64,000 nucleotides of DNA, from contig NC_092562.1 of NCBI RefSeq assembly GCF_037975245.1, positions 23,861,554 to 23,925,553 of the forward strand, written 5' to 3'. Made by a program: the position numbers and the translations under genes. This DNA is from Apostichopus japonicus. Taxonomy: Eukaryota > Echinodermata > Holothuroidea > Aspidochirotida > Stichopodidae. A model generated the notes under the pieces. That model saw nothing but the letters and a program-made list of their open reading frames with translations. It was not told the origin of the DNA and did not search any database. Shown piece by piece: positions 9,301 to 50,200 of the stretch (the stretch's first letter is position 1; each line of letters begins with the position of its first letter).

Positions 9301-12008
9301 CTTACTTATCAAAAGCTGAGGGACCATAAAGACCAAAGAGAGGGGGGTGGGGGGGGGGGAATCCATGAAAGATGTTAAAAAAACTGGGGAAAATGCTCAG
9401 AGGTGTTGTCACAGTGTCAAATGAAATGCTCTACATTAAAAAATAGAAACTATTGATAAGCATAAGCATAGTTCTGAATCTGTATTTAAAAGAAATATGG
9501 GAAGCATTCAAAATGGAACATGTTAGATAAAAAAAACAGTCAGAGTGTTGATGATATTAATTAGGATACTCGTGGATGGTGCTTGACCCAGGTGGTTGGG
9601 GGGGGGACATGGTAGTCTACTGGTAAAGACAAATCGTGCACACCAGCCATTTTTGACAATTTTCCCCATGCTATTACCACTCTGTACTGTACTCCAGTAT
9701 CAAGCTTCAAAGCACCTGTATTGACAGTATGAACAGTTCATAATATTTATCTGATAGAAACATGAATATTCATACTTATACATATTCATACATATATGAA
9801 TACCCAATAGAGAAACTTGGGTGTGTAGATATACTTCAAAATTAGCACACTGATCAAACCTTCGTTTTCATTTCAGGTGCTAATAAACTTACAATTTGCA
9901 ATAACAAGCTGCGCAGCAAAACACTTTTAATATCATACAATGCAACGATACCGCTGGAAGATTGCTACCTCAAGGAGTTTCCAATGCAAGGAGAAATGAT
10001 CAAGAAACCAATCCATGTCTTGCCTTTTACAATTTCGATTAATCAGAGTGCCAGCTCGATGAATTCAAGTTTTTCAGTGGAATGCTATCACCCACAGTTC
10101 AAGAAACTTTACACTGCTGGTCCGGTAATCAGTGATGAGGGTAAGAGGAGGGAGAGGTGATAAGGTTGATACCTGCAGTCACAGATAATATTTCTAGGTA
10201 GTGCTGGAAAAGAAATCAGCGATGGGGTTAAGAGGATTGGGAGGTGATGATGTTGATACCTGTAGTCACAGGTAATATTTATAGGTAGTGTTGTTAAAGA
10301 AATTAGTGATGAGGGTAAGAGGATTGGGATGTGGTGAGGTTGATACCTGTAGTCACAGGTAATATTTATAGGTAGTGTTGTTAAAGAAATTAGTGATGGG
10401 GTTAAGAGGATTGGGAGGTGATGATGTTGATACCTGTAGTCACAGATGTTATTTATAGGTAGTGCTGGAAAGGAAATTAGTGATGAGGATAAGAGGAGTG
10501 GGAGGTGATAAGGTTGATACCTGTAGTCACAGATTATATTTATAGGTAGTGCTGGAAAAGAAATAAGTGATGAGGATATGAGGAGTGGGTGGTGATGATG
10601 TTGATACCTGTAGTCACAGGTAAATATTTATAGGTAGTGCTGGAAAAGAAATAAGTGATAGGGAAAAGAGGAGGAAATTAGTGATAGGGAGGTGATGAGG
10701 TTGATACCTGTAGTCACAGATAATATTTATAGGTAGTGCTGGAAAAGAAATTAGTGATGAGGGTAATATGATTGGGAGGTGATGATGTTGATACCTGTAG
10801 TCACAGATAATATTTATAAGTAGTGCTGGAAAAGAAATTAGTAATGAGGTTAAGAGGATTGGGAGGTGATGAGGTTGATACTTGTAGTCACAGATCATAT
10901 TAAATGGTAGTGCTGGAAAAGAATAAAAAGAAAAAAAAATTACCTTTGATGACTTTGGTGGAGAAGGAGGTGTAGGTGGAAGGAACATGTTGTTGCTGTT
11001 GCACCATATTTGGAATGAATTACCTGTAGTCATCAGGCTGGCAACAAGTATAATCATTTTTTTTAAGAAGAAACTCAAGGCTTTATAAATAAGAAGGCTT
11101 GTGATGATGACATCTCTTAATTATTCCATTTTATTGTCTGAATGTTGGCTGTCCTTTACTTTTTGCCATGAGCTCTCTGCAGAGATAAGTTTTGCATAAT
11201 AAATCCTTCCTTTATTATTTACTTTGATGATTATTTTTTCAACATCAATGTAATTTAGTTTGGATGATTTTCACATTTTGTTTGACTCACTGCATCAGCC
11301 TTCTTAAATAATTTGTGAACCAAAAATAATTTGTTTGTTTGTTTGTTTCTTAATATCCATTGACAGTTTTGTTTCTTGCAGAAAATGAGCTCAAAGAATC
11401 TTTCTCCCTTGTTTCCCTTTCTTTCTCAGGTAAACAGCTTTGCGCAACAAAAAATATGATAGTCAAGGGCACAGACAACGGAGGTACTACGAGCAAAACA
11501 AAGGTCCACCAGTCATTCGTGACATACCATGTAGGACTCTTTGTAGTTTTCATAGTGGCAACAATAGTCTGCAGCGTGGCGGGAACCATCTTTCTTACCA
11601 GAAGATTGCGACTTCACCGCAGAAGACAAGGTCAAAGGTTAGTTTGATTTCTAGGTCGCTCTGTAGAATGACAAACCTGTTGAAAGTTGTGTTCATTTTG
11701 TTTTTTCAGCCATCCAGTGTTGACAAATGTTTTATAAAGTGGTAATATCCTTGCATATCTCTGATTTTTGTTTTCCAATTTTGCTGATGTCAAACACATT
11801 GCACCTTAAGGGCTCCTAATTGGTAAATGGTTCTGTCCCTTCCAAGTATAACTCGGATTATCTTCAATGTCTCTGTGGAACAGCCAACAATACTATCTTG
11901 CAGTCGTCTTTGATGAGTTGACAAATCTAATCGTTTTCTTCCAGATTGCTAGTAAATGAGGACGGAGATGAAGCTGCCTTCAGAGAGTACAGAGAAATGG
12001 AATCATAG
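6153..12008 (+). CDS. Unrecognised single-pass membrane protein, 348 residues, six exons, C-terminal YXXM
   Basis: The exons are 6153-6318, 7546-7788, 8555-8608, 9877-10140, 11382-11637 and 11945-12008. All junctions are GT/AG, the first four introns are phase 1, and the sum is 1047 nt. Seen: a basic N-terminus followed by a hydrophobic stretch (about residues 17-35), probably a signal sequence. A cysteine-containing ectodomain follows with five N-glycosylation sequons. A membrane helix lies at about 292-314, then a basic stop-transfer (RRLRLHRRR), then a roughly 34-residue tail ending EYREMES. The exon 2 segment has the spacing of an FN3-like beta sandwich, which is an inference. The topology looks like a type I receptor or adhesion protein. 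YREM (343-346) fits the YXXM consensus bound by p85 SH2 domains. I do not recognise the family. An upstream GTG in frame at 6150 is not needed; ATG 6153 is the start. Confidence 0.8.
7546..7788 (+). CDS. Membrane protein exon 2 (FN3-like segment)
   Basis: It encodes residues 56-136, between a TTGACAG acceptor and a GTTAGT donor, phase 1 on both sides. Alternating hydrophobic strands (VLILWAHL, YNISIKCIGG, AVHFRI) and three cysteines fit one small beta domain encoded by a symmetric phase 1-1 exon, as is usual for extracellular modules. Confidence 0.8.
8555..8608 (+). CDS. Membrane protein exon 3
   Basis: A short symmetric phase 1-1 exon of 54 nt encoding a cysteine-containing linker (SSSPCTSANWLEQE). 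Acceptor TTTCACAG, donor GTGAGA. Confidence 0.75.
9649..9790. repeat. Dispersed foldback repeat (copy 1 of 3)
   Basis: It shares an ordered set of words with 43432-43580 and 60390-60550: ACCACTCT, a TTGACAGTATGAACAGTT-type core, then AATATTCATACT. It lies in intron 3 of the membrane-protein gene. Confidence 0.7.
9877..10140 (+). CDS. Membrane protein exon 4 (second ectodomain segment)
   Basis: It encodes residues 155-242 with NAT, NQS and NSS sequons and three cysteines. Acceptor TTTCAG; donor GTAAGA after GATGAGG. The last bases of this exon and the donor are the seed of the 87-bp tandem array that follows. Confidence 0.85.
10125..10921. repeat. 87-bp tandem array seeded by the exon 4 end and its donor
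   Basis: About nine units of 87 bp. The first unit contains the last roughly 15 nt of exon 4 and the true donor at 10141. Donor-equivalent positions recur at 10228, 10315, 10402, 10489 and 10576, then near 10664, 10763 and 10850. Only 10315 and 10763 keep GT after GATGAGG; the others have TT, AT or AA. The minus strand is open across much of the array because of its period, and I do not regard that frame as a gene. Confidence 0.85.
11382..11637 (+). CDS. Membrane protein exon 5 (transmembrane helix)
   Basis: It encodes the juxtamembrane region, the helix (GLFVVFIVATIVCSVAGTIF) and the basic stop-transfer. A second, stronger-looking acceptor lies inside it: a pyrimidine tract ending TTTCTCAG at 11429. 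Using it starts the exon at 11430 and removes exactly 48 nt (16 residues) in frame. Either form is possible. Confidence 0.8.
11945..12008 (+). CDS. Membrane protein exon 6 (cytoplasmic tail, stop)
   Basis: Acceptor TTCTTCCAG. It encodes an acidic tail ending AFREYREMES then TAG. The only cytoplasmic tyrosine is in the YREM motif. Confidence 0.8.
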
Positions 12009-12565
12009 CAAAGGATATGTGAAAGGAGTGACCAAAACAACAGACTGAAAATCAGACGAAACAACAGAATTAAGATATCAAAATGCCATTGAGATACAAG
12101 AAGGATGGAACATGGAAGCAAAGATGAACTCTGTAACGACACAGTTTCAAAATTTCAGGCCTAAAGACCGCAAGAGGAAGCCTATTTTTGAAGGATTTTT
12201 TTTTATGAGAAACTGTACTCAAGGTAATTAATTTTGTGGAATTATCACTCTCAATAGTTGGAATCTAGGGCAGGAAGCTCAAAACAGCATTTGGGGTTCT
12301 GTTCTAACTCAAAGAATTACCTGAAGAGGTGTAACACAGTGTTATTGTTTATATACCTGTCCAGGAAGGAACTCATACGCCAAGCTTCTATTCCGGAAAG
12401 GCATAATTCATACGTATAACCAGTTGAATGAAAAGTACAAAATGTAACACATAACATGTAAAGTACAATGCTAGATATATATCAAATTAACAATAATAAT
12501 AATGATGCTTATAACATTCGTAATTATTTGGGTATTAGTAGTAAGTTTTCCCCTCAGACACATTT
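12009..12565 (+). other. Probable 3' UTR of the membrane-protein gene
   Basis: Non-coding sequence between the TAG at 12008 and the first strong polyadenylation hexamer. Confidence 0.5.
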
Positions 12566-12571
12566 AATAAA
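12566..12571 (+). terminator. Polyadenylation signal AATAAA
   Basis: First AATAAA downstream of the stop, about 560 nt into the presumed 3' UTR. Confidence 0.45.
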
Positions 12572-13629
12572 AGCAAACCTGCAATTTTAATTTGAGTGTC
12601 CCACCCGATTTACCTATCATTGTACTTTGTATAATCCCTTCCTTTCAAGTGAACATGTTAGTTGACCATGTACTGTCTTCCAGGGTTGGTGCTTGTAACG
12701 TTTTAAATGGATTGTGGGTTATACTGCTCGTTTTCATAAATAGTACTACCATAGACTGGTTTTTTTCACAGAACTGGTGTTATCGGATACTTATAAATAC
12801 TCAGTGACAAGTTTCAATATTTTGACCATTTATATATATTTCATTTGCAAAATGTTAATCATCCTATTGTTATCAATTCTTTTGTGAATAAGTTTTGCAT
12901 TAATTCAGAAATTTTTCCCGAGATATATTTTTTTTACACTAGGTGTCTGCTACATCTTCAAGGTCATCCTTATTGACTCCAGATGTGCTAGAATGTCAAA
13001 TAATGTCACTCATGTTGAAATTTAACCAGCATTTAACTGCCACTCTCAACCACTGCCAAATCATCACAGATCTGTTAATTGTGTGATTAAACATTTTGCT
13101 GTATCTAAGGGGATAATATGGATGATCTGAAGTTTTATCAAACTGCAAAATTTAGCATTGAGAGGCAACACTGATGACTTTAAAGTTGTATTTGAAATGA
13201 TTGAGTAGGTTATGTTGAAGATGGATTGGGTAGGGTTTGTGGGATATGGAAGGGGGTTGGGGAGGGGGGGGGGGAAGCTGCTAAATTTCTAATCAAATTT
13301 TGAGTAGCACTAATAGATTGCTTTCAACTGCTATATCAAAATTTGGCATCTCTTTTTGCCAAAAGATGTGTTATAAAAAATGAGTCAATTATAAACAGAT
13401 GTAAAAGTCAATGGTTGTTTAGGCTATACTTAGAATAGGACAATTGATTCTATGCTAGAGCATGCCTGCATTGGAATGCATAATGGGATTTAATAGTGTG
13501 AAGTACATTAAATAGCAGCTGGTTGTGTTTACAGAGTAAACTTCCATAAAAACCAAACATATTTTAAAGGAAACAATATTGCATTGTTTGTCGCTCCAAT
13601 GGCAATTGATATCTTCAATTTCTTATCGC

Positions 13630-15358
13630 TAGTGTTCGACCGATTGTATGACAATCGGTTTTACCGATTACCGATTATTTCCTGTGACAATCGGCCGATT
13701 GCCGATTACCGATTACCGATTATTTCAAAATTTTCGTGGAACTGGCCTAATGTATGATTAAGTGTTATGCATGATTACCAACTTCTAGGCCAATACAATC
13801 AAAGATGTAAATGAACCACTTAACTTTTCACAGTAAAGATTAATGGAGCAAGTAAAGAACACTGTAATACATACATGGGGCGATGTACGATTATAACGAG
13901 GAGTCGCAATATTGCAATCCCGCCACAACACAGTACTGTACAGACAGAAGGGGGGAAATAGTAGCCATTGGCTACGAAATGAAAAACAAAAAAGTTAGGG
14001 ACAGGTTTTACAACTGCTACGAAAACCATTATCAGTGTTGCAACTCAAACGTAAATAAAGTAAAAAGTATATCGCACGTAAATAAAATATTCGTTATTTC
14101 GTTAGCTGATATCGAAATATGTGATCTGATATGAAAAATAATGTGTAGGCCTAGTAAGAGTAAGTTGGCCTGACGTTTCGATCCTAGCAGGATCGAAATG
14201 TAACGCCACATTACTTATAACATATTTTTACAAAGGCTCTTTAGTGGATAAGCAGTTTGCTAACAGTTTTATTTTATTATGAAAAATAAAACAATCCCGA
14301 ACGTTTGCTTCAAGTTTTCAATTACCATCTGCGCGGTAAAACTTACGATCGAACGAACGTTGTTTCAAACGATCATACACAGTAAGTCAATGGCGCTTCT
14401 CCATTGACTTAACTACATGTGGGAGAAATCACACACTAAAGTCCCATTGACTTTGTCGCGGCGTGTCACTGGAAATCAGACTTGCTTAAAGTCGGTTGCG
14501 GTAATGAGTTTAGTTACTGTTAGCACGTATGGTGGTAGATGCGGCATAGGAAAAAAAGTTCATCGGGTTTTTCGTAAAAATATGCGTAAGAATGTTTGCC
14601 TAATCACAAAATACTGTTATGCAGTAGAACTTCTGAGGAATGTCGCCAAACGTGTTTATGGACTTTTAGGTGTATTTGGAGCCTTGATTTCATCATTTTA
14701 TGCCATTTGTAAAATCTTGGGCGCATTTTCAAACTTAACAGTTCTGAAGCTCAACCGTTCTTCAGCCAGACTAGCCTAATGTACGTAGTTCTCACAATGA
14801 ACAAAGCCTAATGTTATTGTTTTCACTTTCCAGTTTTCACCTACAGTGAAACGGCCAAAGTGGTTCAAAAGTATACTGATTTGGTGATTATATTTAGTAT
14901 AGACAATTTTTCTTTCGTATAAATCGTTTAACATGATGACAGGTGGTTCTGTTAGATGCAACAAGCGAAGTAAAAAAATAAGTCGTTCCCCTAAGCTTAT
15001 CGCGGGTATACTGCGTGTTGTTACGAGGGTATACAACATGATGTTAACTGACAAAACTGGATAGTGTATCGAACAGCATTTGTGCAAACTCGCGCAAGCG
15101 ACTTACGATACCGTTCCACGGTAGATTAGCGCACCTTCCCCGGTTATGAATAGCATTGGAATCGAACGCTCAAATTTTTTTTCTCCCGTTGTAGTTGTGG
15201 TGTTTCAAAAGCGCGGAAAATACAATCCTTTATGTGGAACGTAATAATCGGTTCCAACTAATCGGTAGCGCAATGGATTTTGCCGATGCCGATTATTTAC
15301 CGATTATCTGATAATCGGCCCGATGCCGATTGTCTAACCGATTATCGGTCGAACACTA
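13630..15358. mobile_element. hAT-like non-autonomous element, 1729 bp
   Basis: The termini are perfect 15-bp inverted repeats TAGTGTTCGACCGAT, flanked by a perfect 8-bp duplication CTTATCGC (13622-13629 and 15359-15366). Both ends carry clustered ACCGATTA / ATCGG subterminal words, as expected of transposase-binding sites. The 120-codon frame at 14417-14779 shows no transposase motif that I recognise. A perfect palindrome TTTCGATCCT-AGC-AGGATCGAAA lies near 14177-14199. Confidence 0.88.
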
Positions 15359-17039
15359 CTTATCGCTGCTTTTTGAGTGGATAATACAACTGGCAAAATA
15401 CTCTGTTGTTTTAGCCCACCAAAATGTTCACCAGGAATGGTGACAATTAACAAAATCTTGACTTATTTGCCAACAACAAGATACAGCATAATGTTTAATG
15501 TGTGCCACACATACATTACTCTGTATTTTGTTTATGTTATTGCATGTCACTACACATTATGTGGTAAAGAGCCTAGCCTACCATGAAGTTTGTATATAAG
15601 AACTGAGGATAGTGTTATCAATATCACTCACTCACTCTAAATGCTGATATCTAACTTATAATGCATCAGTTTGAGTAAGAGGTTAAATTCATTCAGAAAT
15701 CTAAACGGAAGTGTAATGTAGCAAGATGGATGTAACCAGCTGCAAATAGAGTATAGACTACAGCTAAAACTGTAATTGGGTAAAGAGGTATAACCATGCA
15801 CATGGGTGTATAGTGGTGTGATTTCTCTATTCTTTCTGACAATGTTCTATGTCATAGCAATGCTTTACAAATCATTTACATCTGCTTTTCTCATTGCAAG
15901 TTTTTAATCTGTGACAAAATGGAAACTCTTTTGGGTTGTCGAAGAACTGCAATAATGTACAGAATTGTAAAATATTGTGTAATATTAAGCCTATTTACTA
16001 TTATTATCTTGTATACTACTAAATATGGTGAGGTTTTGTGATGGTCTTGTATATACTACTAAAATATGGTGAGGTTTTGTTCTTTAAAAAGTTGAACCAT
16101 TTAACAGACAAGTTTTATTTTTATGAAGTGAACAGTAACACCAAGGAGTATTTGGAATTTTGCACAATAGTTTGTGTGAAACATTGAATTTTTTGATGAA
16201 ATAAGGAGTTTTAAGTACAATTACCACATGTTGTTAAAGTCATGAACGTTAGGTGATGTGTATATAACCTTTTCAGTGTTGTGAATTTCATATCCAAACC
16301 CCATCGTCCCTTTTCACTCAATATCATCTCTGTTGTGGGGTTATTATGTACACACAAATTATTCAATGTGATACGAACAGGAGATTTATTTACTTTTATT
16401 TAGATTAAAATTGATATGATGTCATCATCATTTCTGTCTGTACCCATTCATCTGCTTTTGACCATAAAACTAAATCATTGACATAAAAAATTGACAGAAG
16501 TTTCAAATGGATTTGTTTATGTATTGATTTCCAAGACTTTTGGGTCAATTCAATTGAGGTAAAAGACAAAAGGAGTCAAAGAAAATGCTTGTTAAAACTT
16601 GACTTTTCTAGAGTTTGTTTCTCAATGTATCAAAGTAAAAATCTTTCCCCTATTTAAGGATGACTACCAATCAGTTCTAACAGCTCAACCCCTTTCTCCT
16701 CTGGTTTCCTAAAGATTGTTCTATGAGCATTTGTAAAAAAAGGTTGACACATTGAATAGTCAAAGGTTTCTATCATATTCACTGCTGAATTTACCCAGAG
16801 GTTTACACTGTATATTTATTATTTCAAGCTATGTTTGGTCTTAAAGTTTTCGTTTCCTTATTCTATTTTTTTTGACATATATTAAATAAAAGTGCCATTT
16901 GAGAAAAGGTAACTTCATCTATTTTGTTTGGTATATAAGTGAGAAGGACAGAGTTTTTTCTTTCTTTTTTTACTTTTTCTCTTGAGCATGAACAGAGTTC
17001 AATCTGGTTACTCCTGACTTGGTTTATACCCGGAAGAAA
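15359..17039. other. Gene-poor intergenic stretch
   Basis: AT-rich, with no exon or clear repeat except a short direct repeat of an ACTACTAAATATGGTGAGGT-like phrase near 16013-16080. It could be distal 3' UTR or ordinary intergenic DNA. Confidence 0.4.
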
Positions 17040-17187
17040 ATCAGTTAACTAACGTAAAATGTTTGAACAGTAATTAAGGCAAAAATTCACTCTTTCCTCT
17101 ATTGAATTTGAAACAGGCTAACCACTGTGATACTGTTAGCAGGTGCGTATCCAGGGGGGGGGCGTTGGGGGCGCGCGCCCCCCGGGT

Positions 17188-24699: not shown

Positions 24700-27600
24700 C
24701 TACATATTTCGGGAAAAGATAGTGAACATTGCCAAAAGAATGAAATGTTAGACATTATTACAATAAAGATTTTTGTAATGTAATCTTGAATGCAATTACT
24801 GAGTTCTGTTTGCTGTAGGCCTTACATAGTAATGGTAGACCCAAGCTCTAATTAAATGAAGCAAGCCTAACTAAGTCCAGCATGGTATTTTATTTTACAT
24901 TGTCTAGTAGCCAAACGTTTGGCATATTATCAAATAACTTGGTTCCTCACATTGATGATGTTACTGTTAATTTCAATGTAAATGAGATTAGGAAGCAGGG
25001 CTCGAAAATCATATGCACCGAGTCTTAGTGTTATTGTTAACTCAACCCGGACACATTAGTCACAGATACTATCTTGCCATACCCTGGGGCTTCTTCTGCT
25101 ACTCACAAATTTATAGACCATTCTGGGGTCAAACAATGTGAACTGATATCGAAAAAAAAAAAAATCCACACAGTTAATAAAAAATCTTAAGTAATCTTTC
25201 GAGATATCTCAAGAGATATTAGCTTAGCCTTCTTTCATCCCTCCAAAAAGTGGACCGCAGTAAGTGGACCACAGTAAGTGGACCACAGTCAGCAGACCAT
25301 GTGGTCCACTGACTGTGGTCCACTTACTGTGGTCTATTTACTGTGGTCCACTACATGGTCCACTTACTAAGTGGACCACAGTAAGTGGACCACAGTAAGT
25401 TGGCTGTAATGTCATCTGGACGGATGTTCTTCAAATGATTTCAAATAGTCTAGAAAAGATATTATATCCTTAAAACCTGATACATTTTGCCTACAATAGC
25501 TGTCAATGTTATCAATAGTTTGAATTCATCAAAATGCAATTCTTCCTTAGAAGTATTATTTACCTCTGTAGATAAATGATTGAAATATATAGGGCCAAGG
25601 GAAACAAAGAAGAAATTGCCCTACTCAATTGTCAGGTGCTTTTAAAAAATATCACCAAAGTTAAAACAAATCATATCTTCACAATACAAAATGCCATGAC
25701 AAAATGATGTTAACGTCTTGATGCTGCAACTTTTTCGGCCGTTTGCTTAGCAATCAGCTTCAGAGTCCAAACGATCCTTTTAATTGGCCTGACTGTTAAC
25801 AAGATTAGACATATTAATTAGTATAATCTACTAATCTAGATGACTAAGAACTGAGATTTTTCATAGTGATGATAGAAGACTGAGAAAAGCTGGCTGGGCA
25901 GAGTATTGTTTGCGAAAATCTTTCTTAAACTGTCACTGCCTTTTAACATCTGGAGTAGGCTACATACTGGGATTGCAACACAACAGTATATGTGCACAGT
26001 ACAATATACCACACGCAATTGACATCATAAATTTATTCGAAGTGCACGGAGTTGTTTAGTAGTGAACAGGTGCAGGAGAATACGGTAGTATAAACACATG
26101 CTTTCTTTTTCCAAAACCTAAATGGGAACATTTTTTTGGTTTCTAAATGTATGGAAACAACCTAGGTGAAAATAGATACCAGTTGACTTAGGATGTTGGA
26201 ACTTGGAAATATTGTGGGGTAGCACATAAGCTGCATTGTGCCACTGAATGGTTAACGACTGACTTGTACAGATAGGTAACAGACAGGAACAATGCATGTG
26301 CAGATGCGGCAGGCAGGATTGTCACTCACAGGGAAAAGTCCCACCGAATCATCACTCCAGTTGTACAACAGCTTCACTTGTTGACAGTCCCATATTGTAT
26401 ACATTGATTTTAAACTTATGCATACTGCTTACAAAGTTCCATACAATGGTCCAACTCCACGTTATCTTTACAACCTAATCCAGCCATTTTGTTCTTAGCT
26501 TCCCTTTCAACGTTTGAACTAATGTGGAAGCTTTTCTCATAGTACTATTTTCTCATCTGGCGGCCGATGATTCTCTGTTGCAGCCCCAGATCTTTGGCAA
26601 GATACTTCCCCACTGCCATCAGAACAGTGTGTAATGTCAACACTTTTGAAAGGAAAGGCTTAAGACTTACTTGTCCTCAAGAGCATTTTGGTGACTCTGA
26701 GAGGAGAGCATTTTGGTAACTCTAAGAGCAACTGAATGTTGATTGAATTCGGACACTATTAAGATGTGCTACTGTAAGTACAGTAGTACTGTAAATGGCT
26801 AAATCTTGAATTGACATAAAGCTAGGACTGTTGCCATGTACAGTATGTACAGTACACTGTCTGACTAGTAGTCATCCATTATTATTGATGTTACAATGTC
26901 AGTAAAGTTGAGTCAGGTTGCATTCAGTAGGTCAATGTCCATCCGACGTAAGATTCATACATGTACAGTATATTGATAATGCTGGGATGCAAAGTCACTC
27001 ATTTGTAGGTGTAGGCATGTGAAAGCCATTACTTTAGATGCTCATAGCCAAAGAATATGAGAGAATCATTATGCTTGGGTAATAGAGCATGACCAGCCTT
27101 TTTATTCAAATTTTCTTTTGTCCTTCCTATGAATGCACATGGGTGTGTTATTGTATGCCTACGTTCAGATATGTTTAGACTGTACTTGGTCTGTGGTTCT
27201 GGTGTAAAGGAAGGCATTTTGTAAGCAACCTTTGATAGCAATGCTGGTTTTCAATCTATTTCATCTTTCATTAAATGTTCTAAATGTCTAGAATGTGATC
27301 TGTACCTGATCAATTAGTAATGCAGTCAAAATTGTTGTTTCAAGGCTAACAAACGCTGATCAGTTTTCTATGGCTTTGCTTTCTGATCGGAGCCGACTTA
27401 ATAGTCTGTTTAAGTGTTTACCAGAATAAGTAGTCCAGACACTAATTCTGACGGATTTGTTTCTGATGTCAGTACTCAGGATTATTTCTGTAAAATATTA
27501 GAAGACTGAAGTAGTACAGGAAAACAATGTGGACTTCTTAACGCACTGTGTATGGGAGGTCTCTAACATATATATCAGAACTTAATTACGTGCCTTTCAT

Positions 27601-32235: not shown

Positions 32236-35200
32236 GTAAAATCAGGATTTTTTTCCAGCTCTTTTGGTCGGTGGAATGTTGAGATACTCACTATGATATC
32301 ACTAAGTACTAGACTACTCGTCTAGAATGAACTGGTAACGTGCTAACACTAACCTCTGACAGGGACCATTCATATCAGATACATGTATTAAGACAATACA
32401 CGGCAGTTTTTTTTTAAAAGCATGCATTTCATTGGTTGCTTCATAGCAACCAAAGTGTTTTTGTGAAAAACACAGTTTGTAACTCGATACTTAGTAGCCG
32501 GTAATACTGATACTGTCCAACTTTGGATCAGGTTCCATTAATTCCGACATTATCCGGCCATCATTACTTGGCAGCCTGCCAGCGTTACTGTGAATATGTC
32601 CTGCTCTTTCATGAGCTTGAAATGGGTGGTACATATATTCCAAAACACCATATTTTTTTTGTTCAAGCTCGGCACGGAAGCTCTTGAAGAATGCTTCGGA
32701 TGCAGTCAGTTAGCCGTGCTCTTGGCGCAAGGAACATGACTTTGAATTTCCTTATATTTAGCCCGACGAATAACTCAACGATAATTGCATCTGTTGAAAC
32801 TTTTGATTTCATCAATGATTACATAAGGCGGTACAAAAACGAAAGTACCGTTTGTTTGCAGTTTACACTTTCCACTAAATGCACCACTCTCTAAAATGAC
32901 TGATTGATGATTTTACAGTCATGATAGGCAGACTTTAAAAATAGGCTGCTTTTATTGATGAAACCAAAAGTTGTAGAAACCATATCATTGAAGTTTTAGA
33001 AAGTTTCACATAATCGATGAGAAAAATATGACCAGAGTGCACTCTATGTTAACTTATGTTTTATGTGTTTTCCATTAGATATTTTTGTGTATTAATTAAG
33101 TATACTTCAATTCTTCTAGTCTTAAAGACTTTCTTTCTGGTGTCCTCAAATTGATCTGTCTGTTCCAAATCCCCACCCCCCCCCAAATAAGTTTGTCAAT
33201 GTTGTGGTGTAGTATATAGCAGAATGAGTACTGTAGAAAGTAAACTGTCTCTTAAGTATCACTTCTGCTATCGATAAGAACATTAATAAAAAAAATTGCA
33301 TCCATGGTTTTGTTGCTCAGTCTCTCCAAAACTGATACTGAACATGAGAAAACTTGATTTATATTTATTTTATTTAATTACCAAATTTATATAGCACTCA
33401 TTTCATGCTTTTCAAAGCATGTTCAAAGCGCTTTACAATGACAACAAAATGACAAAACCCTTAAAATATGAATAAAATATAAATATGAAAATTGACACAG
33501 CTTAAATATTAATATATAAAAAAAATATATACGTACATATAAATGAAGGAATATATAATTTTAAAAATAAAATAGATTTACAGTGAAATTCCTAAGAACG
33601 AAAAAAAGTTAGTAAATTTAAGTAACAAAATAACAAGACTTCTTCAGAGCATTGGAGGTCCAAAACCTGGTAAGCTTTGGCATCTAAATTCCAAAAGTGC
33701 AGCCTCTCCAGTCATAGGCATCTAGGCATACACCAGTACTAGTTTATTACAGCTGTGTAGTTTGTGTTATCTTATTGTTAACTATATTCCATAACCTACT
33801 GTACTTTTGTTGTACAGTATGGAACATAAGAACTGCTGATTTTAAGATACAGGTAAAGGACTCAAATAAGTCACATACAGTATATCTCATTTCCATAATT
33901 TCATTTACACAGTTTTTAACTGCTTGTTTATATTTCATAGAAGTGTTTATATCTGTTTTTTTTTGTTTTGGTGATAGGTTAGTTAGGAGGGGAAGGAATA
34001 AATAATATACTATTTGATTCACCATCTCCTACCAGTTTTGCCTTGCATAGGTTCTAAACATTTCTCCAATGAAATGCACAATGCACCTCAAAACCCAACA
34101 GAACTCTACCCCCTAATCCACTTTGGATTGTTCGGTTGCACCAAAGTTACCTCGTCCGGGACCGTACTTTGAAACAACTCTTTGCAACTGACTGTGATAT
34201 AGTACTGTATCGGTATATCGTAAACAATATATGAATATTGTCTGACACTTGAATTAGCACAGTATCATATGTAGATGTGATGCATAGTTATTAGACAGTA
34301 CTGTACTATATATACTACACATTTATGTTTCAAACGTCACATAGTCCATTTTCCCCAAAATACTTCCTCTAACTCTGTCTAACCAGCAAAGGAACTAACT
34401 GCAGATAAGGATACACAAGGAAATCACTGTTTTGAATCGCCGATGGGCTTCCATGCTGTCATAACAATAAACATGTATACTCTACAGACTAGGTTGTAGT
34501 TCTAACTTCCTGTATATATATATATAGATATATGTATTATGTACAGTATTTCATATTGTATTATGTACAGTATATATATTATGAACAGTATTGCATATAT
34601 TGTATGATGTACAGTATATATGTACAGTATTGCATATTGTATTATGTACTATATTATATACAGTATTGCATATTGTATTATGTACAGTATATATATTATG
34701 AACAGTATTGCATATATTGTATGATGTACAGTATATATGTACAGTATTGCATATTGTATTATGTACTATATTATATACAGTATTGCATATTGTATTATGT
34801 ACAGTATATATATTATGAACAGTATTGCATATATTGTATGATGTACAGTATATATGTACAGTATTGCATATTGTACTATATTATGTACAGTATTGCATAT
34901 TGTATTATGTATGTCAGTATAATGTACAGTATTTCATATTGTATTATGTACAATATATATTATGTACAGTATTGCATATTGTAATATGTACAGTATATAT
35001 ATTATGTACAGTTATTGCATATTGTATTATGTACAGTATATGTACAGTATTGCATATTGTATTATGTACAGTACATATATGTATTATGTACAGTATTGCA
35101 TATGTTTAATTATGTACAGTATTGCATATTAGAGAATTGTGTCATATAATAATGTCATCTTGAGAAGAAAAGTGTTGAGTTCAACTTTTGTCTTTCTCTA

Positions 35201-38200: not shown

Positions 38201-41200
38201 TCTCAGATCTCATCATTTCAAATAGTTAGTCAATGTCAGATCTGCTTCGCTGCTTTTGTACATGGCTATCTTCGGTTAAAGAACACACATCTACTTGCCA
38301 TCATCTTTATCTCAGCACATTTCATCCCATTGTGGAGTGCAGGTTCATTCGATGTAGGAACCACTGTAGGGTACCGTTGGTGCTCTGGTGTTGGTTTTCC
38401 CATCTGAAATGGTGTTCCAAATTCTAGAAAAATCCCAAACGATGAATTTTTTCTTTAATTTGATAGCCCCCTACTAGAAATGAAATGTAAGTTACGAGCC
38501 ATTCTGCTTCTCTCACATACACATGTGGCAACTTAGCATCGTAAAGTAACTGGCCGATTACAACAACTAACACATTTCTTCCAATATTTTTACCGGTCTA
38601 GAACATGGGCTTGCTGGACGAGTTTCACAGAAAGTGTATTATCTACACAAGGGATGAGTTGAATGGACGAGGAAGCAGTGCATCCAATCATGTTAATCCA
38701 GATGCTTGTGAGTATGACTAGCATTATCTACACCAGGGATTTGTTAGAATGGATTAGGATATAGTGGATCCATTGGTATTAATTCAGATGCTTGTGAGTA
38801 TGACTAGCAGTATCTACACCAGAGATTAGTTAGAATGGATTAGGAAATAGTGGATCCAAAGGTATTAATCCTGATGTTTGTGAGTATGACTAGCATTATC
38901 TATACCAGGGATTAGTTAGAATGGATTAGGATATAGTGGATCCAAAGATATTAATCCAGATGCTTGTGAGTATGACTAGTATTATCTACACCAGGGATTT
39001 GTAAGAATGGATTAGGATATAGTGGATCCATTGGTATTAATCCAGATGTTTGTGAGTATGATTAGCATTATCTATACCAGGGATTAGTTAGAATGGATTA
39101 GGATATAGTGGATCCAAAGATATTAATCCAGATGCTTGTGAGTATGACAAGCATTATCTACACCAAGGATTAGTTAGAATGGATTAGGATATAGTGGATC
39201 CAAAGATATTAATCCAGATGCTTGTGAGTATGACAAGCATTATCTACACCAAGGATTAGTTAGAATGGATTAGGATATAGTGGATCCAAAGATATTAATC
39301 CAGATGCTTGTGAGTATGACTAGTATTATCTACACCAGGGATTTGTAAGAATGGATTAGGATATAGTGGATCCATTGGTATTAATCCAGATGTTTGTGAG
39401 TATGATTAGCATTATCTATACCAGGGATTAGTTAGAATGGATTAGGATATAGTGGATCCAAAGGTATTAATCCAGATGCTTGTGAGTATGACTGGCATTG
39501 CCTACACCAGGGATTAGTGGTATGAATTAGGATATATTGGATCCAAAGGTAGTAATCCAGATGATTGTGAGTATAACTAGCGTTATCTACACCAGGGATT
39601 CTAAGTTAGAATGGATTAGGATATTGTGGATCCAAAGGTATTAATCCAGATGCTTGTGAGTATGACTAGCAGTATCTACACCAGAGATTAGTTAGAATGG
39701 ATTAGGAAATAGTGGATCCAAAGGTATTAATCCAGATGTTTGTGAGTATGACTAGCATTATCTATACCAGGGATTAGTTAGAATGGATTAGGATATAGTG
39801 GATCCAAAGGTATTAATCCAGATGCTTGTGAGTATGACTGGCATTATCTACACCAGGGATTAGTTGTATGGATTAGGATGAAGTGGATCCAAAGGAATTA
39901 ATCAAGATGTTTGTGAGTATGACAAGCATTATCTACACCAGGGATTAGTTGTATGGATTAGGATTTAGTGGATCCAAAGGTATTAATCCAGATGTTTATG
40001 AGTATGACTAGCATTATCTACACCAGGGATTAGTTGTATGGATTAGGATGAAGTGGATCCAAAGGAATTAATGAAGATGTCTGTGAGTATGACTAGTATT
40101 ATCTATACCAGGGATTAGTTGTATGGATCAATGCATCCAACCATTTCAGACCAGTTTTGACAGCATTAATTTATATTATGTACATGAGTATAGAGAATCC
40201 TATGATTATTTTTTTGATTTGAACTTTTCTGAGAACATTTTACAAAGATTCTTGGAATTGAGATTACTGATTTCTTGCCTCCAACTCACAAAGTCCTTAA
40301 GTTTTAAATAAAACAAACCCTAAAATTGTTAAATTGTTCATGAATAAACTTGCAGTTATTTAAATTGATGACAGACAGAATGGTGAATCTAATATCAAAA
40401 CAACAGAAGTAGTGAAGACTTCCTCCACAAATGAAGATATTCAGTGAAATGATCGAGTCTCTCCTGTTTGTTTGCAGCCTTTCAACACACAGCTAAACAC
40501 CATAACTTGATGGAATACACATTCTCTAAGCTTACGTGGTGTGCGAAATGCCGAAGGTTTATGTATGGATTGGTGCAGCAGGGCCTCTACTGTAAAGGTA
40601 AAAACTTCCGAGTGTTTGAGCCTTCCTAGCGATGTGGAAAGGATGAAGCAACAGGGTTTTTTAGTTTCCATTTTACTGATGGAGATGTAACTTTCAATTA
40701 TATGATGAGGATTATTCGGCAAATAATTATAATTTTCAGTAATGTGACCATATGGCAATGAATGTTCAGAATCTCATGATATGACAAGGAAAATTCACTT
40801 ATATGACATTGAATATTCAGTTCATATGTACATGATGTTCTGTAATATGTAATCTAGTCAGTGTAGAATCGGAATTGTTGAAAATTCATTCATACAATCA
40901 TGTAATATTGATATGAAGAGACACTATAGAACCTTTATGTATGGTTTTGTCAAATTCTCTTTAGAAAGTCATTTAACAATTAATAATCTCAAAATAGTGC
41001 TGATGTATATCATGTTGTCCTTTACATTTTATTACAGTATTATTTAAATAACATATCCCAAGAAACCAAATTTTAGGCAGTACTAAAGTGTAACAATCCT
41101 AGTTCACTTTCCACTCTGTAATCATTGAATTTATTCCATAAACATGAATTGAAGCATGTTTTTCAGACCAAAACCTTTTCTCAGCTGGTGTTACACCCAG

Positions 41201-44200
41201 TTGCTAGACAGCAATCTATAGGTAGCTTACATTGTTGGTTTTATATGCAACCAAGGTAGGCTGACATATTTCTTGTGAGGAGTAATTATTAACCTTTTTT
41301 TTCATGATGCCTTTGTCTTGATTAACTTTGGTAGTTCCATCTTTGGTCATGCTTGCACAAGAGAACACTAAATGATCCAAGAAAAGTTGTATCAATACCC
41401 ATCCATGATTCTATCACCATGAAATGATTACAGACCATGAAATGATTACAGACCATGAAATGATTACAGACCATGAAATGATTACAGACCATGAAATGAT
41501 TACAGACCATGAAATGATTACAGACCATGAAATGATTACAGACCATGAAATGATTACAGACCATGAAATGATTACAGACCATGAAATGATTACAGACCAT
41601 GAAATGATTACAGACCATGAAATGATTACAGACCATGAAATGATTACAGACCATGAAATGTTTACAGACCATGAAATGATAACAGACAGAGAACAAATGA
41701 TCAACATCTTTTTATAACCTTGCTATAAAGCCTTCCCTGTATCATCTTCCTTACAGTGTGCAATTGTGCATTCCATCGTACTTGTGCTGCCACTGGACTA
41801 CCGAAATGCAATGCAAAAGCCATAAACGACAGTGGCATGAGAGAAAAAGGTAAGAACTAGAGTAGTTAGATGTATTAAGACTGCATCATATAGTAGCTAG
41901 TATCGATATAATTTACCTGATTTGTCACAGTGGAATAGAAATATCTGCAAAGAATATCTATGTCTCATTCCAATCCTTCCGTTCAACTCATTTATTCGCT
42001 TTTCATTTGTAGGTTTCACAGATTAACTTATTTAATCCTTCTTGCAACAAAACTAGCCAAAATTGTTGTCCTACCCTATACCTCACCCCTGACCTCCCTT
42101 TGGTAATATCTACCAAACCTTTTACTGCATAAGGGGACATGTTTACAGAGTTCTTTGCTCCTTGCTATCAAAGGAATGGATCTTTTTTCAGTAGAAGCTA
42201 AACTCGCTTTTGTGGTGAATAATCCAAAGGGTCTTTGGAGATTTGAATATGTATCACAATTTCATTTATATTGTTTCTTCTCCACATAAGATTCATTAGT
42301 TAATGAATTTTTAAATTTTTTTTGTGCTTTATATTTTTATTCTGTTTGGTTTTATGTTGTACATGTTAGACATTAGTTAAGTATTTGTGTACTAAATGCA
42401 TCATCCATTTATTAATTTATTTTTTCTGGTTTATTCAGCTGGAGTATTCTGTCAACCACTTGAAGAACAATTTCAAGTAGAAACAGAGAATGCCCCAGTG
42501 GTGATCGTAAAGTGTGTGGAAGCCATTGAAAGTAGAGGTATTTATTTGACATTTTGAGTGTTTCTGATCTTGGACCAAATATTAAACCTTTAAAAAGTGC
42601 TCACCTTTTAGAAAGAAGTCCAGACTCTGAGGAACAAAGTAATATAAATATGTTGGCTTGAAAAAGGTAAAACATAAAGTGTTATCCTTGTGTACTCCTT
42701 TATCACACAAAACAGTTCACCATGACAACCATTAATTCGTGACCCAGGCTCAAGGCATTTTGAACTTCATCAGTGAATTGCCCCCCTCGCATGCTAATAA
42801 TTGTCATCTTAACTTCAACAAGTTTTTTAGGTCCCACTGTCAAACTATTTCCCTAATCCTTAATCCCTCCCCCTCCTCCAATCCATTGTGGGCTGGAGAT
42901 ATCAGTAAGGAATCTGCACTACAGCCAATATATTGCACACAAAAAAAGTTTGAAAAGTGTCAACTAATCTTCAAGAAGCATTTATAAGTCCCATTGTCAA
43001 TATACCCCTACACATCATCCCACCCCCCCACACTAACACACAGTTTTGTGGCATTTAATTGTCCACATTAACCCTTCGTCAATTGATCTAGAGATGAGTT
43101 TGATAGTCAGAATGCCATCCAGGTAAGGATCTTTCTTGTAAGATAATATCTGATTTCACCTTCAGATACTCCTGTTAGAGGGCTCTATCGTACATCGGCG
43201 TCCACGATACCGGTAAATGAAATTAAAGAACAGTTCAACGAGAATCCCGACAAGGTGGACCTCTCAAAGTGTTCAGATGTCCACATTATCACAGGTGTCC
43301 TCAAGAGGTACCTGAGGGAGCTACCAAACCCAGTCATTTCTCTGGAGATGTATGACGAATTTCTTGCAGCTATAAGTAAGTTCATCTGACCTTCTGAATA
43401 CTCATGAATTGACCTCTTCACCATCAGCGAGTCAGTTGGGAAAATCCTCCAATGCTAACACCACTCTACGCTCTCCTCTGAGATCATGATTTAAAGCACT
43501 CGTACTGACAGTATGAACAGTTCCTCACCTGTACCTAATATTAGCATGATATTCATACTTCTCAAACTGCTGTACAGGTTTTTCTTCTGTGAAGCATGAG
43601 AACTATTTCTCCACAAAATGATTGGGTGTTATTTTTCTCTAAGTGTGTTTGAGGAAGCCTAAACTTCCCCTGGGTTGTCTGTTAGTCACAGCTATGTTAT
43701 TTATCATGTGTGGTCAGTTGTGGGTCATGTGTGGGTCAGTTATCATGTGTGGGCCAGTTATGCAAAATAGTGTCTGGAGTATTCCTAGGAGTGTTTTCTT
43801 CTCATCCTTCAAAATGTTGGCACCTTGGCCTATTGTTCTTTTTTCTTCACATATAAACCTAGATGAGTTCGGTCATTATTAAATTTAAATGTTCACTTGA
43901 ATTATGGTTACTGCTTTCACAATCAATACTAGATAGTCTGAATGTTCTTTCCCCATTTCTGAATCATTCCCACACAAAGCCAGATATAGTTTAGAATCTC
44001 TGTCTCTCTGTAAATAATAATAATAATAAAAATAATAATAATAAATAAGTCCTTAATATAGCGCCAAATACGAAAGGCCTCTAGGCTCTTTACAAAACCT
44101 AAAAAATATTAAGAAAATTAAAGACAGAGAAATCAAAAAAGAAATTTATGCAGCAAAGAACAAGAAAACTATCATCACCCCTACTTACACCCCTCCCCTT

Positions 44201-47200
44201 TCCATAATTTTTTCTCCAGGTGTCTCAAGAGAAGGGGACCGAGAAGCCCGGCTACTTGACTGCGTACAGAGGCTTCAGCATGCCCATCGGTCAACACTCT
44301 CTTACCTGATGGCTCATTTTGCTAGAATCTGTCAGAAGACAGACAATCAGATTCAGCCCAGACATCTCTGCTTTGTTTTCTGTCATATTCTTCTTAGACC
44401 GCCAAGAAATAAAATTTTGTGAGTAACGTTATACTGTATTAGTGTATTAGTAATGGTTATTGCATGGAACAATGCATTAAGCATTTACTAAATACAGGAG
44501 TGATGTGGTGGAGGGGGGGTTGGGGAGGATGGGGGGGAGAGGGTACATGGAATTTTCAGAGGTTAGGTGTTAGGAGTTAGGATAAGGATACTTGCTTCAT
44601 CATTTATCTTGTCACCTGACAATATCTTTTTGAATCTGTTTGGATAAGTGGTCATGAGAAATTGCCTCTACATTTTGTAATTGCAAACTAAATAATTGAT
44701 ACAACTTCCAGACAAGTTGCAATAATTTGGGAGTTTTTAACTCTTCCAAAATTACTTGCAAGACCTTAAAAGAGAATCTAATTTAGGCCGTCAAATTTCT
44801 CATTATGGAAAGTTTTGCTGTAAAATAAAGATAGTAAACCCACTGCTGCATTTATATAAAAATTTAAAATATTGAGATCATCTGGACGGACAAATATACT
44901 GTGTTGTGAAATTTGCCTTGCAGTTAAACGGCAGCCCCATGTGCTGGCCACTGTGCCTTAGTTACATCAATTTGGTTAGACCAAATCCTCCAGTTATCAG
45001 CACAACTACCTAATAGAGAAATTTGTGTGTTCAATGCATTTCGATGTAATGGCTTGTCTGTTTCATATGGAAACCGTCGATGTTTGCCGGTGTTAATATT
45101 CCGTGGGACAATTTTGGTGAACTGTATGGCACAGATCATACTTTCAGGTATCTTTCAATGGCAGTTAAGTTACAGCCCTCCTCTTACCAGACTTTTGAGA
45201 GACCATGTTATTTTGTTACTTTGTCACTTGAATGTACTTCTGAACTAGCTTGTAAGAAATATACAACATAATGATTGCAGTGTCTCGTGGGAGTTGTTGT
45301 CGTTAGCAACCAAAGTGACACCAAACCTTTTCCCGTTCCTCTCTGACAGACATGTCATTCACAATACAGACGCTCATCGGAAAATCGTACTAACTTTAAT
45401 CGAGAAGGGAGACTGGGGTGTGATTCAGCCCACACCGATACCTCCTGGTAAGAATAACTCGGTGGTCATCACCTCAACCTTTCAGGTCTCTCTTCACGAG
45501 AGCAGCTGGTTTGGTTTGTCTCGCCATCATGTACCCTCGAACAGAAATCAGTTCATGATGTACAGATTACAAATGGATTGATTTATTGATTGATTTATTC
45601 ATTTAAAGGAAGGTTTCCAGATATATCAATATTGTCAGCTTTCTTTGATCTGCTGATGTACCAGTTTACTCATACTTTCTAAAATTTTGATGGATTCATT
45701 TAATTAGACTAAAGAGTTTGTAGATATCAGAGATCCGCCATGATCTCCTGATGCACCAGTTTTATTCATAATATGGAATTGATTTATTTATTGCTTTTCT
45801 GCAGAAATTCCTGACAGAAATGCAGCGTACGCTCCGATCACTGGTGCGACCAACGGCGGGCCTAAAACCTTAGAGGAGGCAGAGTGGTACTGGGGGAGTA
45901 TATCAAGGTAAGTTGTTAACCTCAAGTCCTAAGAGTGGGCACCTTAGAAGGGCCATTCTCGGTCACGTGTGTGACGGAAAAATGGGGAGATTTGCACTTT
46001 ACCACTAAGTAACTACTTTTAGGTAAAGAAAGTTGGGTTGATTGTAGTACTTAAGTACGCACTAGGGGACTCTTTTACAAAACCATATATCTTAGCCAAA
46101 ATCAGAACATTCATGTGCTGGCAGAGGTCATAGAGGAGGCAGAGTGGTATTGGGGGAGTATATCAAGGTAAGTTATTCAAGTCCTTAGAAGGGGCACCTT
46201 AGAAGAGGCATCCTAGAATAGGGGGGCCTCAAACCTTAGAGGAGTCAGAGTGGTATAGAAGAGGCAGCAGGGAGTGGGGGGGGGGCAGGGAACGAGTTGA
46301 AGGAGACACACTAATCTCTTGTGGACATAGATGATAATTTTAGATGATAATCTCTAACAGCATTTTGTAATTAATTCATCATCTTCTGATTCTCATTTAT
46401 CTCCCTTCCCTCCATCTTTTTTCACTTGCACTTCGTAGCCACCAATATTTCACCTTCCTTGAATTTTGGGGGCTGGAAAGTTCTCGTAGAGCTGTACAGA
46501 CGTGACATTTAGGTACACTCACGATGTGTTTCTATCTCTCTTTTCTCGCTTTCCATCCCGTACATTCTTTCCTTCGATTCATTTTGCTTAGTCGCAAACA
46601 ATGAGAAATGTTACGTTTTCTCCACGTTTTAGGGAAGAAGTTAACGAGAAGCTCCGAGATATGCCCGATGGAACATTTCTGGTCAGAGATGCTGCTAACA
46701 AGTTCCAGTCTGGAGACTACACACTCACACTAAGGTAAATATCAGGTGGGATAGAGGGGGTGGGGGGATAAAGGGGGTGGGGGTGGGATAGAAGGGAGTG
46801 GGATGGGAGGGGGGATGTTCACACCCTCCCTAATTAAAGTCCCACGCCACAAAAAGAGGTTGTTATTAACCTTAAATTTTTCAATAACAGTGCTTGTTAC
46901 AACAAAGCTAATTTTGTTTCTAAGAGATTCCCATTTATAAATTAAAAAAATCTATCTAGCAAAGTCAATGGATATATTCCTTGGAAAGCCAGAATTTGCA
47001 AATACTTAAGATGAATTTTAAGTATTGTACAAGTTAGTTTTTCATCTTTGAGTATTTTTTTTCAAATCTTTTTCGGTGTGTTCTGTTTTATAGGAAAGGA
47101 GGGATCAACAAACTGATCAAGATTTACCATAAAATGGGGCATTATGGCTTCACAGAACCTTTGAAGTTTCATTCAGTGGTAGAATTGATACATCACTACA

Positions 47201-50200
47201 AGCATGCCTCCCTCAAACAGTACAACGAGAAGCTGGATGTCCGATTGCTGCATCCTGTCTCAAGGAAGGACCAGGTTAGTGGTTCATCATCCCTTCAAAT
47301 ATCCACAGCTTTACTGTAAAAGCATTATGGATAAATGATATACCCCATAATAATGATAGGGTTTCAATAGAATATTATCTACAGCAGCTGGAGGTAAGAT
47401 TACCACATCTAATCTCAAGGAAGGACCAGGTTAGTGGTTAATCCTCCCCTAAGATATCCACAGCGTTACCGTTAGAGGGGGGCATTATGGATATATGATA
47501 TACCCCATAATAAAGATAGGGTTTCTAGAGAATATTGTCTACAGAAGCTGGAGGTGAGATTACTGCATCCTGTCTCAAGGAAGGACCAGGTTAGTGGTTC
47601 ATCATCCCTTCAAATATCCACAGCTTTACTGTAAAAGCATTATGGATGATATACCCCATAATAAAGATAGGGTTTCTAGAGAATATTGTCTACAGAAACT
47701 GGAGGTAAAATTACCGCATCTAATCTCAAGGAAGGACCAGGTTAGTGGTTAATCCTCCCCTAAAATATCCACAGATTTACCGTTAAAGGGGGGCATTATG
47801 GATATATGATATACCCCATAATAAAGATAGGGTTTCTAGAGAATATTGTCTACAGAAGCTGGAGGTAAGATTACTGCATCTAATCTCAAGGAAAGACCAG
47901 GTTAGTGGTTCATCATCACAGATTTACCTTAAAAGGGGGCATTATGGCTATATGATATACAGGCATAAAGTGGTTGTTATATCATATTATAATTATCATT
48001 GTTGTTTTTATTATTATGATTATTATATGATATACCACGTAATAATGAAAGGGGTTTGTAGAGAATATCGCAGTTACTGTGACTGAAACGAACGAGACAT
48101 ACTTCTGTCCGTGATTCTAACATTTTCTTTCATTTTTACAGATGGATGTACCCGATGATATAGAAAGCCTGATAAAAACATTGCAAGACAAAAATAGCAA
48201 ATATCTGGAGAAAAACGCAGATTATGACAAACTCTACGAAGACCACAATAAATCACTGCAGGTGAGAGACCGTTTTGTTAATTAATTACTGAAGTCACCG
48301 GCAATTTGATGAGAACCAAATTTGTTTCAACAATTATTTAAACAGTGGCAATACTGACAGGAAAACTGTAAACAAATTTTACAGTGACAATTAAGAAACA
48401 TTTATTAGAGTATTATTGAAGAAACTTATTGACTGGAAACAAAACTTGAACCAGTCATCTCAGGATATACAAGATCTTGTACCTTTTCCAACTGAGCTTA
48501 ACTAGCTGTTACCTTGGTGGTGGGAGTTCCCTTGTAGCTGCTTGTTTGCTAGAAGGTGGCAGGCAGAATATAGTGCTTCCTTCTAAAATTAATGTCCAGC
48601 ATAGGTTAGCAAATGGACACTTTAACCTTTCTCTTGGCATGTGTGGTACATTGCCTTAAATAAAATAAGGGATTGGTTTTTCATCTCTATGTACCATGAA
48701 TGTTCTCTGTATGTCAAAGTACATTAATGAGTTCATATGAACGTAGAGCAAAATTTGCAGGGTATTGTTGTAAACTGTAGTTCTCTCAATTTGAAGTATA
48801 TTCCTCAGATAACATTTTGTTTGTATTTTCTATCACAATTAATTGCTCCATTGACTACTTACACACTGATTTTTAAACACTTTCCAACTTTGCCCCAGAG
48901 CGTATACAAATGTTTTTGAACTGTCATATCATAGTTACCCAGTAAGACTTTAGCCAGAAATGAGATATAGGGAAATTAATCCAGTTTGTGTAATGGGTAA
49001 ACATTTGCTGACTGGGAGGGGGGAGAGAGGTGGAGACAAGGCTCATAGTTTCAGTGATTTATATGACAGACGGTAGCATCATTTGAACTTTTCCGGGGGG
49101 GGGTGGGGACCAGGCTCTTATTTCTGTGATTCATATGCCAGACGGAAGCATTATTTGAAGCTCTTGTGGGGGGGGAGGCTATTTCATGCTCTTTAACATC
49201 AAAGGATTAAAAAAGTGATATGGATGATAAATAAACTGCATACGTGCAAAGAAAGTCACCTCTCAAAGTCTGTTGAGGCGGTCCTCAATCAGGGTAAGCC
49301 TCTGATGTGGATATACATTACTCGGTACTTACAAGAAGTACCCCGGTTAGACAACATGTTTTTTGATAAGGAAGAGCTAATCTATGCCACATAGCTTGGT
49401 GGAAAATGCCATCACAATATCTTGTTCCAAAATTAAGATATTTAATCTTTGTCTTGAAGGTGTAATTAATCTTTATGTATTTTTCCTAATATTTTTGGTT
49501 TATTTGACCTTTGACATGTGCAACAATTTGAGTTTCTTTGTTTTAGCGGTAGATATCCTCTTAAGTCAAGGCTTCATGAATATGCACTTTGTTTATCAAA
49601 GGTAATGATTTGTAGTACGTGATAAAGACATTTTCGATTACCTTGCTACGGTATGTTGCCAGAAACATTCATAAAAAAAAACATACCAAATGTTAAAGTT
49701 TATCGCTGGGATCACACATGTTATTAGGATGCGGTTACCACATATTACAAAATTGTTTTTTCTATTCCAATCATAGGAAATCAAAGTTAAGAGGCAGGCC
49801 CTGGTAGCTTTTGCAGAGACGGTCAAAGTTTTTGAAGAGCAAATTGAACTCCATATGAGGCATCATAACAATTGTCCAACACAAGAATCACAGCCGTAAG
49901 TGAAAAACTTCTGTCATGTTTGAATGTAGCTGTATGCACCGTACAGAGTAGGAAGGTAGTCTACGTTACCCCCCTCCTTCCCTTCTCTCTCTCCCTCTTC
50001 TCCCACCTACCCACCTCCCCACCCTTCCCAAAGGTGCATTTAGCTTGCTAATGCCCACAGAAGCTAGTTAACAGTAGTAGCTACTGACTAATCCTCAAAG
50101 TAAAAGCTAATCAACCCATTGGTCATTTTTACCTGAAATGACGCAGGTGTCTCAATAGGACCTAACACAGAAAGGCCGAGAAAAAGATCTGGTTCCATTT

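Follow-up and report, generated by a model that had tools for sequence, protein, structure and literature searches.

Several systems have been described in which a tandem repeat reaches an exon-intron boundary or in which exon sequence is duplicated together with splice signals. In the human gene ABCA7, a variable number tandem repeat (VNTR) in intron 18 is described as having a 25-bp unit, and the first two bases of the array are GT (PMC5954066). According to the same account, the donor located one unit downstream is also used, which yields an out-of-frame transcript, and longer arrays raise the skipping of exon 19 (PMC5954066). De Grassi and Ciccarelli (2009) described variable internal tandem repeats in human segmental duplications, and the parts of that report used here give 27 intron modifications after manual inspection (PMC2812944). 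We examined a stretch of 64,000 nucleotides from the sea cucumber Apostichopus japonicus (the window, C2:23861554-23925553 of a genome with 671,581,487 bases in 35 contigs), in which several introns begin with tandem copies of the end of the preceding exon plus its 5' splice site, or donor. In a ferritin exon of this genome, 72 of 73 aligned residues are the same as in PDB chain 7vhr_A, an A. japonicus protein.

The sea cucumber arrays resemble the ABCA7 VNTR in that a tandem array lies directly behind an exon and takes in its splice donor. However, ABCA7 is a single locus at which, by its description, no exon is repeated (PMC5954066), whereas the sea cucumber units hold about 9 to 90 exon bases and belong to a genome-wide class. 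As with the repeats of human segmental duplications, these are minisatellites that overlap exon-intron boundaries and are found by genome screening, although the human set, as far as described, covers primate segmental-duplication genes only, with units averaging 30 bp and with donor and acceptor sides not contrasted (PMC2812944). There is also a likeness to the tandem-duplication model of intron gain, in that the duplication includes exon sequence and GT signals. In that model, as presented in its source, the duplicated exonic segment makes a new intron (PMC3443670), whereas the sea cucumber copies are added to an intron that is already there. The model also places AGGT at the segment ends, where it is used as donor and acceptor, but the donor lies within 10% of a unit end in none of 16 arrays. 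The arrays do agree with the description of a boundary minisatellite, namely head-to-tail units of about 10-200 bp in several copies that take in the preceding exon's canonical donor. The exceptions to the presence of several copies are one p85 intron described below and the sampled loci L131 and L045, each with a single scored extra copy. Our search of open-licence papers turned up ABCA7 and the human boundary repeats, but neither a donor-spanning class described across a genome nor such arrays in echinoderms. A 2007 study by Zhuo et al., judged by its title, reportedly links human introns with tandem arrays. Single human cases are known, whereas the genome-wide class and its donor/acceptor asymmetry look new.

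The plus strand of the window carries one membrane-protein gene and one phosphoinositide 3-kinase p85-type gene. A preliminary description, made from the letters alone, claimed that tandem arrays are seeded at the 5' splice sites of at least four introns in two genes, and that the repeat unit contains the 3' end of the preceding exon plus the donor. Both claims were borne out when the arrays were located by Tandem Repeats Finder and reading by eye. Behind each of the exon 3' ends at 10140, 38707, 45907 and 47274, the exon tail and its donor recur in tandem or close by, and the repeat holds both parts in all four cases.

The first of these exons (9846-10140, plus strand, as are the next three) belongs to the membrane-protein gene and was placed from its open reading frame and donor context, with its last base at 10140 and the GT of its donor at 10141. 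An 87-bp array of about nine copies (10127-10923) begins in the last 14 bases of this exon, or about 28 by eye, and the donor GT is retained in 2 of 7 scored copies. In the p85-type gene, the exon with an open frame at 38602-38707 (last base 38707, donor 38708) is followed by an 86-bp array with 17.4 copies (38638-40128). Its unit is composed of 70 exon bases and 16 intron bases, and 15 of 16 scored copies retain the donor. The two remaining cases follow exons for the N-terminal SH2 domain (N-SH2). One exon (45805-45907, donor 45908), whose translation ends in WYWGSISR, has extra junction copies at 46131-46260. Two such copies had been described, and one is indeed a good copy carrying the exon tail and an intact donor at 46168, 260 bases downstream of the original, but the other is a worn, partial copy that has no donor. 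The other exon (47093-47274, donor 47275) is followed by an array at 47228-47917 with units of 151-160 bp (spacings 160, 151 and 160). The four extra copies previously noted here all bear the donor (4/4).

A fifth case had been suspected at the right edge of the window, where a 51-bp array on the minus strand occupies positions 63687-64000 and extends to window coordinate 65143, for a total of 28.5 copies. The next 3 kb of sequence reveal that the array abuts a probable exon on the minus strand (65224-65109, donor 65108), which is predicted solely by its splice signals and open frame. The unit is mostly the last 35 bases of this probable exon plus the donor, and the first minus-strand copy is the end of the probable exon. 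The fifth case stands as a probable one.

Among 20 window exons whose ends were placed approximately, a donor-side repeat is present at four (alignment scores 98-172), and an acceptor-side repeat at none (top score 32). This donor-side rate exceeds that of a sample drawn elsewhere in the genome (4/20 vs 11/230, P 0.014), and tandem repeats cover 13.6% of the window vs 6.3% in 170 loci. The window was chosen because of its donor arrays, and it is thus treated as the discovery set.

The genome sample comprises 230 exons from 129 genes, each with about 600 bases of flanking sequence. The exons were drawn from the best-scored matches listed for seven Pfam families (SH2, kinase, kinesin, myosin, RhoGAP, tyrosine phosphatase and ferritin), and were accepted as exon-like when stop-free, with a match of at most 400 bases and an open frame extending no more than about 70 amino acids beyond it. 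Multi-copy SH2 clones and most of 150 phosphatase matches were left out. Matches on one strand within 40 kb were counted as one gene. The test was alike at both exon ends: sequence around the exon end had to recur in the next 300 intron bases, and the matches were then read. Duplications internal to an exon were scored only as copies towards the near intron.

By this test, a repeat crosses the donor of 11 of 230 exons (L041, L045, L047, L050, L067, L084, L123, L128, L131, L173 and L184) but the acceptor of only 3 of 230 (L008, L039 and L183; Fisher P 0.054). Adding the 20 exons of the window gives 15/250 vs 3/250 (P 0.007), a comparison that includes the discovery set. As a share of all arrays seen on the respective side, donor-crossing arrays account for 11 of 24 and acceptor-crossing arrays for 3 of 25 (P 0.012). 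Exons of the same gene are not independent, and among the 129 genes donor arrays occur in 8 and acceptor arrays in 3. The sample was also grown after inspection, with donor counts of 5/110, 9/189, 9/214 and 11/230 and acceptor counts of 2, 2, 2 and 3 at successive stages. The last batch of 16 included ten matches with an internal stop, for which the rule was relaxed, and it contributed 2 of the 11 donor and 1 of the 3 acceptor cases.

Thus, about one in twenty sampled exons (about 5%) runs into copies of its own tail and donor. The preliminary description had proposed a comparison of donor-containing with acceptor-containing repeats and would have been contradicted by the lack of a donor excess; the sample instead carries an excess on the donor side, and the pattern recurs well beyond the window. 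The difference between donors and acceptors is the firmer result, and it may reflect a donor excess, an acceptor deficit or a mixture of the two. Measured against array density in introns, the final sample has 3 acceptor-crossing arrays vs 7.4-11.4 expected (P 0.063-0.0035), and an earlier stage of the sample had 2 vs 9.9-11.9 expected (P 0.001-0.003).

Exon interiors serve as a comparison for both ends. With the test point placed 120 bases inside the exon, no repeats were found on either side (0/187, at the 214-exon stage), and at 90 bases the counts were 1/213 and 0/213 on the two sides. Low-complexity sequence, a possible source of bias at acceptors, was flagged in 1 of 230 windows at each of the two ends, and switching off the filter leaves the crossing counts unchanged. 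When borderline cases were read, none of eight on the acceptor side and none of five on the donor side crossed the exon end. Four candidates from the coarse test were dropped on reading. The L164 donor array, included in its count of 10/214, starts inside the intron, and the acceptor-side repeats at L048, L100 and L142, among those counted by the coarse test (5/189 at a score of at least 60), end inside the intron. The accepted donor cases vary in form. At L084, about 63 bases of a kinase exon are joined to 7 intron bases, with eight further near-identical copies in the fetched stretch, whereas L131 holds a single spaced duplication and no array. The repeat at L045 has diverged, and the copies at L173 mostly have no donor. 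The unit-position values of L173 and L184 are estimates, the exon fraction taken for L050 is about 0.17, and the copies at L045, L047 and L050 were judged from the printed letters.

We favor, with a probability of about 0.6, a model in which the arrays are minisatellites that originate from ordinary short tandem duplications happening to span a 5' splice site and that are then filtered by splicing. Genes would differ in how readily short tandem duplications form and grow in them. When one spans a donor, the first donor would stay in the original exon and all extra copies would land in the intron, such that the mRNA would be unaltered while the spliceosome keeps to the exon-proximal, first-transcribed donor. 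The array might then be free to grow. When a duplication spans an acceptor, a complete new acceptor would be placed upstream, where the spliceosome is likelier to select it, with a spoiled mRNA as the result, and many such duplications would be lost. Duplications inside an exon would likewise tend to damage the mRNA and be lost. The arrays would need no function of their own. A preference for the upstream of two equal donors under exon definition, as described for minigenes in cultured cells (PMC9225289), would protect genes that carry donor arrays. Commitment to the first-transcribed site would also predict the asymmetry, since more donor than acceptor arrays should survive under such a rule, whereas pure exon definition would spare both ends and pure intron definition neither.

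The sequence of the arrays offers indications of which donor is used. Reading on from the exon-proximal donor, an in-frame stop is met ahead of the donor of the next copy in 13 of 14 arrays, the sole exception being the 51-bp right-edge array, in which one copy is readable in frame. Thus, a translatable product from an alternative donor is not predicted in these 13 arrays, and the copies would be poor backup donors, contrary to the role proposed for them in the preliminary description. In addition, splicing of the p85 sequence at the exon-proximal donors (45907, 47274) yields a protein whose alignment to human p85 alpha is free of insertions at both joins; three residues ahead of the second join there is a gap of two residues. 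The exon-proximal donor is very probably the normal one, judging from frame and alignment.

Several observations weigh against the splicing-filter model. The final sample shows no more than a borderline acceptor deficit (3 of 25 arrays, binomial P 0.07). A pure filter predicts equal array density in exon ends and intron interiors, but 11 vs 4.7 array starts per 100 bases were observed (binomial P 0.03), and Poisson estimates of the donor excess from unit length give P values from <0.001 to 0.052, depending on the unit estimate and filter. Interior arrays taken alone are not clustered by gene (1 pair vs 0.48 expected, P 0.38), unlike those that cross donors, a contrast that general proneness would predict less well. 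Exon definition as the sole rule would make copies that span an acceptor just as tolerable, yet fewer are present here. Finally, donor-side arrays are not necessarily harmless, given that longer arrays in human ABCA7 are described as raising the skipping of the next exon (PMC5954066).

Some of these points could be accounted for by a donor-linked hotspot, in which the exon-intron junction itself raises the rate of tandem duplication through transcription-linked breaks, RNA-DNA hybrids or a polymerase paused by U1. We consider this the less likely explanation, at roughly one chance in four. Array starts number 11 in exon ends and 13 in the next 278 intron bases, an exon share of 11/24 where 26% is expected (P 0.03), and this mild excess over the interior, together with the larger exon-start share on the donor than on the acceptor side noted above, keeps a hotspot under consideration. 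The excess fades when one donor array is counted per gene (8/21, P 0.17), and an earlier stage of the sample had no significant donor excess (9 observed vs 5.2-7.1 expected, P 0.08-0.29). If duplication took place at the donor or joined AG|GT sites, the donor should sit at the end of the unit, but it lies within a tenth of an end in 0 of the 16 arrays, which indicates that AG|GT is not the breakpoint. The units are about 50-260 bases in length, and their exon fraction of 0.14-0.90 does not depart from a uniform distribution (KS P 0.22, n=16). The breaks at the donor, or duplication of AG|GT segments, envisaged in the preliminary description do not fit this distribution. Copies share about 76% to 100% identity with the exon junction, and this range suggests that the process is recurrent and in part recent. 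Donor-crossing repeats cluster by gene, with 4 same-gene pairs vs 0.33 expected (P 0.001-0.002), including three in one myosin gene on contig C4 and two in one RhoGAP gene on contig C18; the p85 gene of the window adds three further donor arrays in one gene. Such clustering, with interior arrays unclustered, is what gene-level transcription acting at donors predicts. However, all donor-side arrays taken together are also clustered (8 same-gene pairs vs 1.7 expected, P 0.001), and genes with donor arrays more often have interior arrays in their remaining introns (3/11 vs 10/208 elsewhere, P 0.02), which points to regional proneness rather than to a donor-only process. The proneness appears to be a property of the gene or region, although a donor-linked part may contribute. 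Sense-strand GC skew, a hint of RNA-DNA hybrids, is not significantly higher in introns with donor arrays (0.16 vs 0.04, P 0.17).

The other alternatives are considerably weaker. Selection might keep the copies because they tune splicing by acting as decoys or backups for the donor, as could be suspected from the 11 of 14 arrays in which every scored copy has GT at the donor and from ABCA7, where use of a donor one unit downstream and an effect of array length on the splicing of the next exon are described (PMC5954066). We regard this as improbable in view of the stops noted above; young arrays would retain donors without selection, two other arrays have lost the GT in one copy each (15/16 and 5/6 kept), the membrane-gene array has a decayed donor in 5 of 7 copies, and the first copy at L173 has no donor. 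Even less probable is that tandem genomic duplication of AGGT segments has been caught in the process of making new introns, a link drawn in the preliminary description. Such a model needs duplicated coding sequence with AGGT-like sites (PMC3443670), and exon sequence is indeed duplicated, but the breakpoints avoid the donor, and the inspected arrays reside behind exons of conserved genes, inside existing introns, with no new intron seen. An assembly artefact is equally improbable. Tandem arrays are in general classic sites of mis-assembly, but each of the four arrays in the window, like the one at its right edge, is shorter than 2 kb, their copies differ and the pattern recurs in unrelated genes. 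Moreover, the published chromosome-level assembly is described as built from PacBio HiFi reads (671.60 Mb, 34 scaffolds, 23 chromosomes of 18.21-46.02 Mb, contig N50 17.2 Mb; PMC10344927).

If about 5% of the donors in an animal genome head such arrays, they would amount to natural experiments on the choice of splice sites, hundreds or thousands in number, with position varying while sequence stays nearly constant. The exon tail and donor are duplicated up to 16 times (28 times in the probable right-edge case), and often order alone separates the sites. The donor/acceptor difference could make the old question of scanning vs exon definition vs kinetic commitment answerable with one RNA data set. 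Donor arrays also offer a simple route for introns to grow with exon-derived sequence, and they call for caution when genes are annotated or RNA is mapped in genomes of this kind. A more speculative proposal, which we rate as rather unlikely, is that the arrays are a natural record of splice-site choice and that, in addition, the donors of the p85, C4 myosin and C18 RhoGAP genes are duplication hotspots seeded by transcription.

Not every array in the p85-type gene is of this type. A 31-bp intronic array at 50765-54626 (plus strand) was rejected as a donor-seeded case and serves as a contrast: the exon ends near 50589, and the array begins well inside the intron. It is divided in two by a short element at 52640-53036 that, by eye, is probably tRNA-derived. 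Another intronic repeat, between the exons for the SH3 and SAM domains, is an AT-rich 117-bp array of smaller GTATTATGTACA-like units (34535-35041).

The p85-type gene (31908-57130) has recognizable parts for SH3 (under the Pfam cut-off), SAM, C1, RhoGAP, N-SH2, inter-SH2 and C-terminal SH2 (C-SH2). The SAM (E 5e-7) and C1 (E 3.5e-6) domains seemingly lie between SH3 and RhoGAP, a placement suggested by the order of exons on one strand. Human p85 is not known to have SAM or C1 domains. For the membrane-protein exon at 9846-10140, a Pfam search with E values up to 1 returned no family.

Runs of a 14-bp repeat are located at 25248-25400, where three runs adjoin and the orientation of the unit alternates. 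On both sides of the window, from about 1 to 32 Mb of contig C2, there are very many similar-looking tyrosine phosphatase exon matches. Many SH2 matches on contigs C14, C4 and C19 share an identical profile span (1-57) and a 133-amino acid open frame, as if one SH2-bearing sequence had spread.

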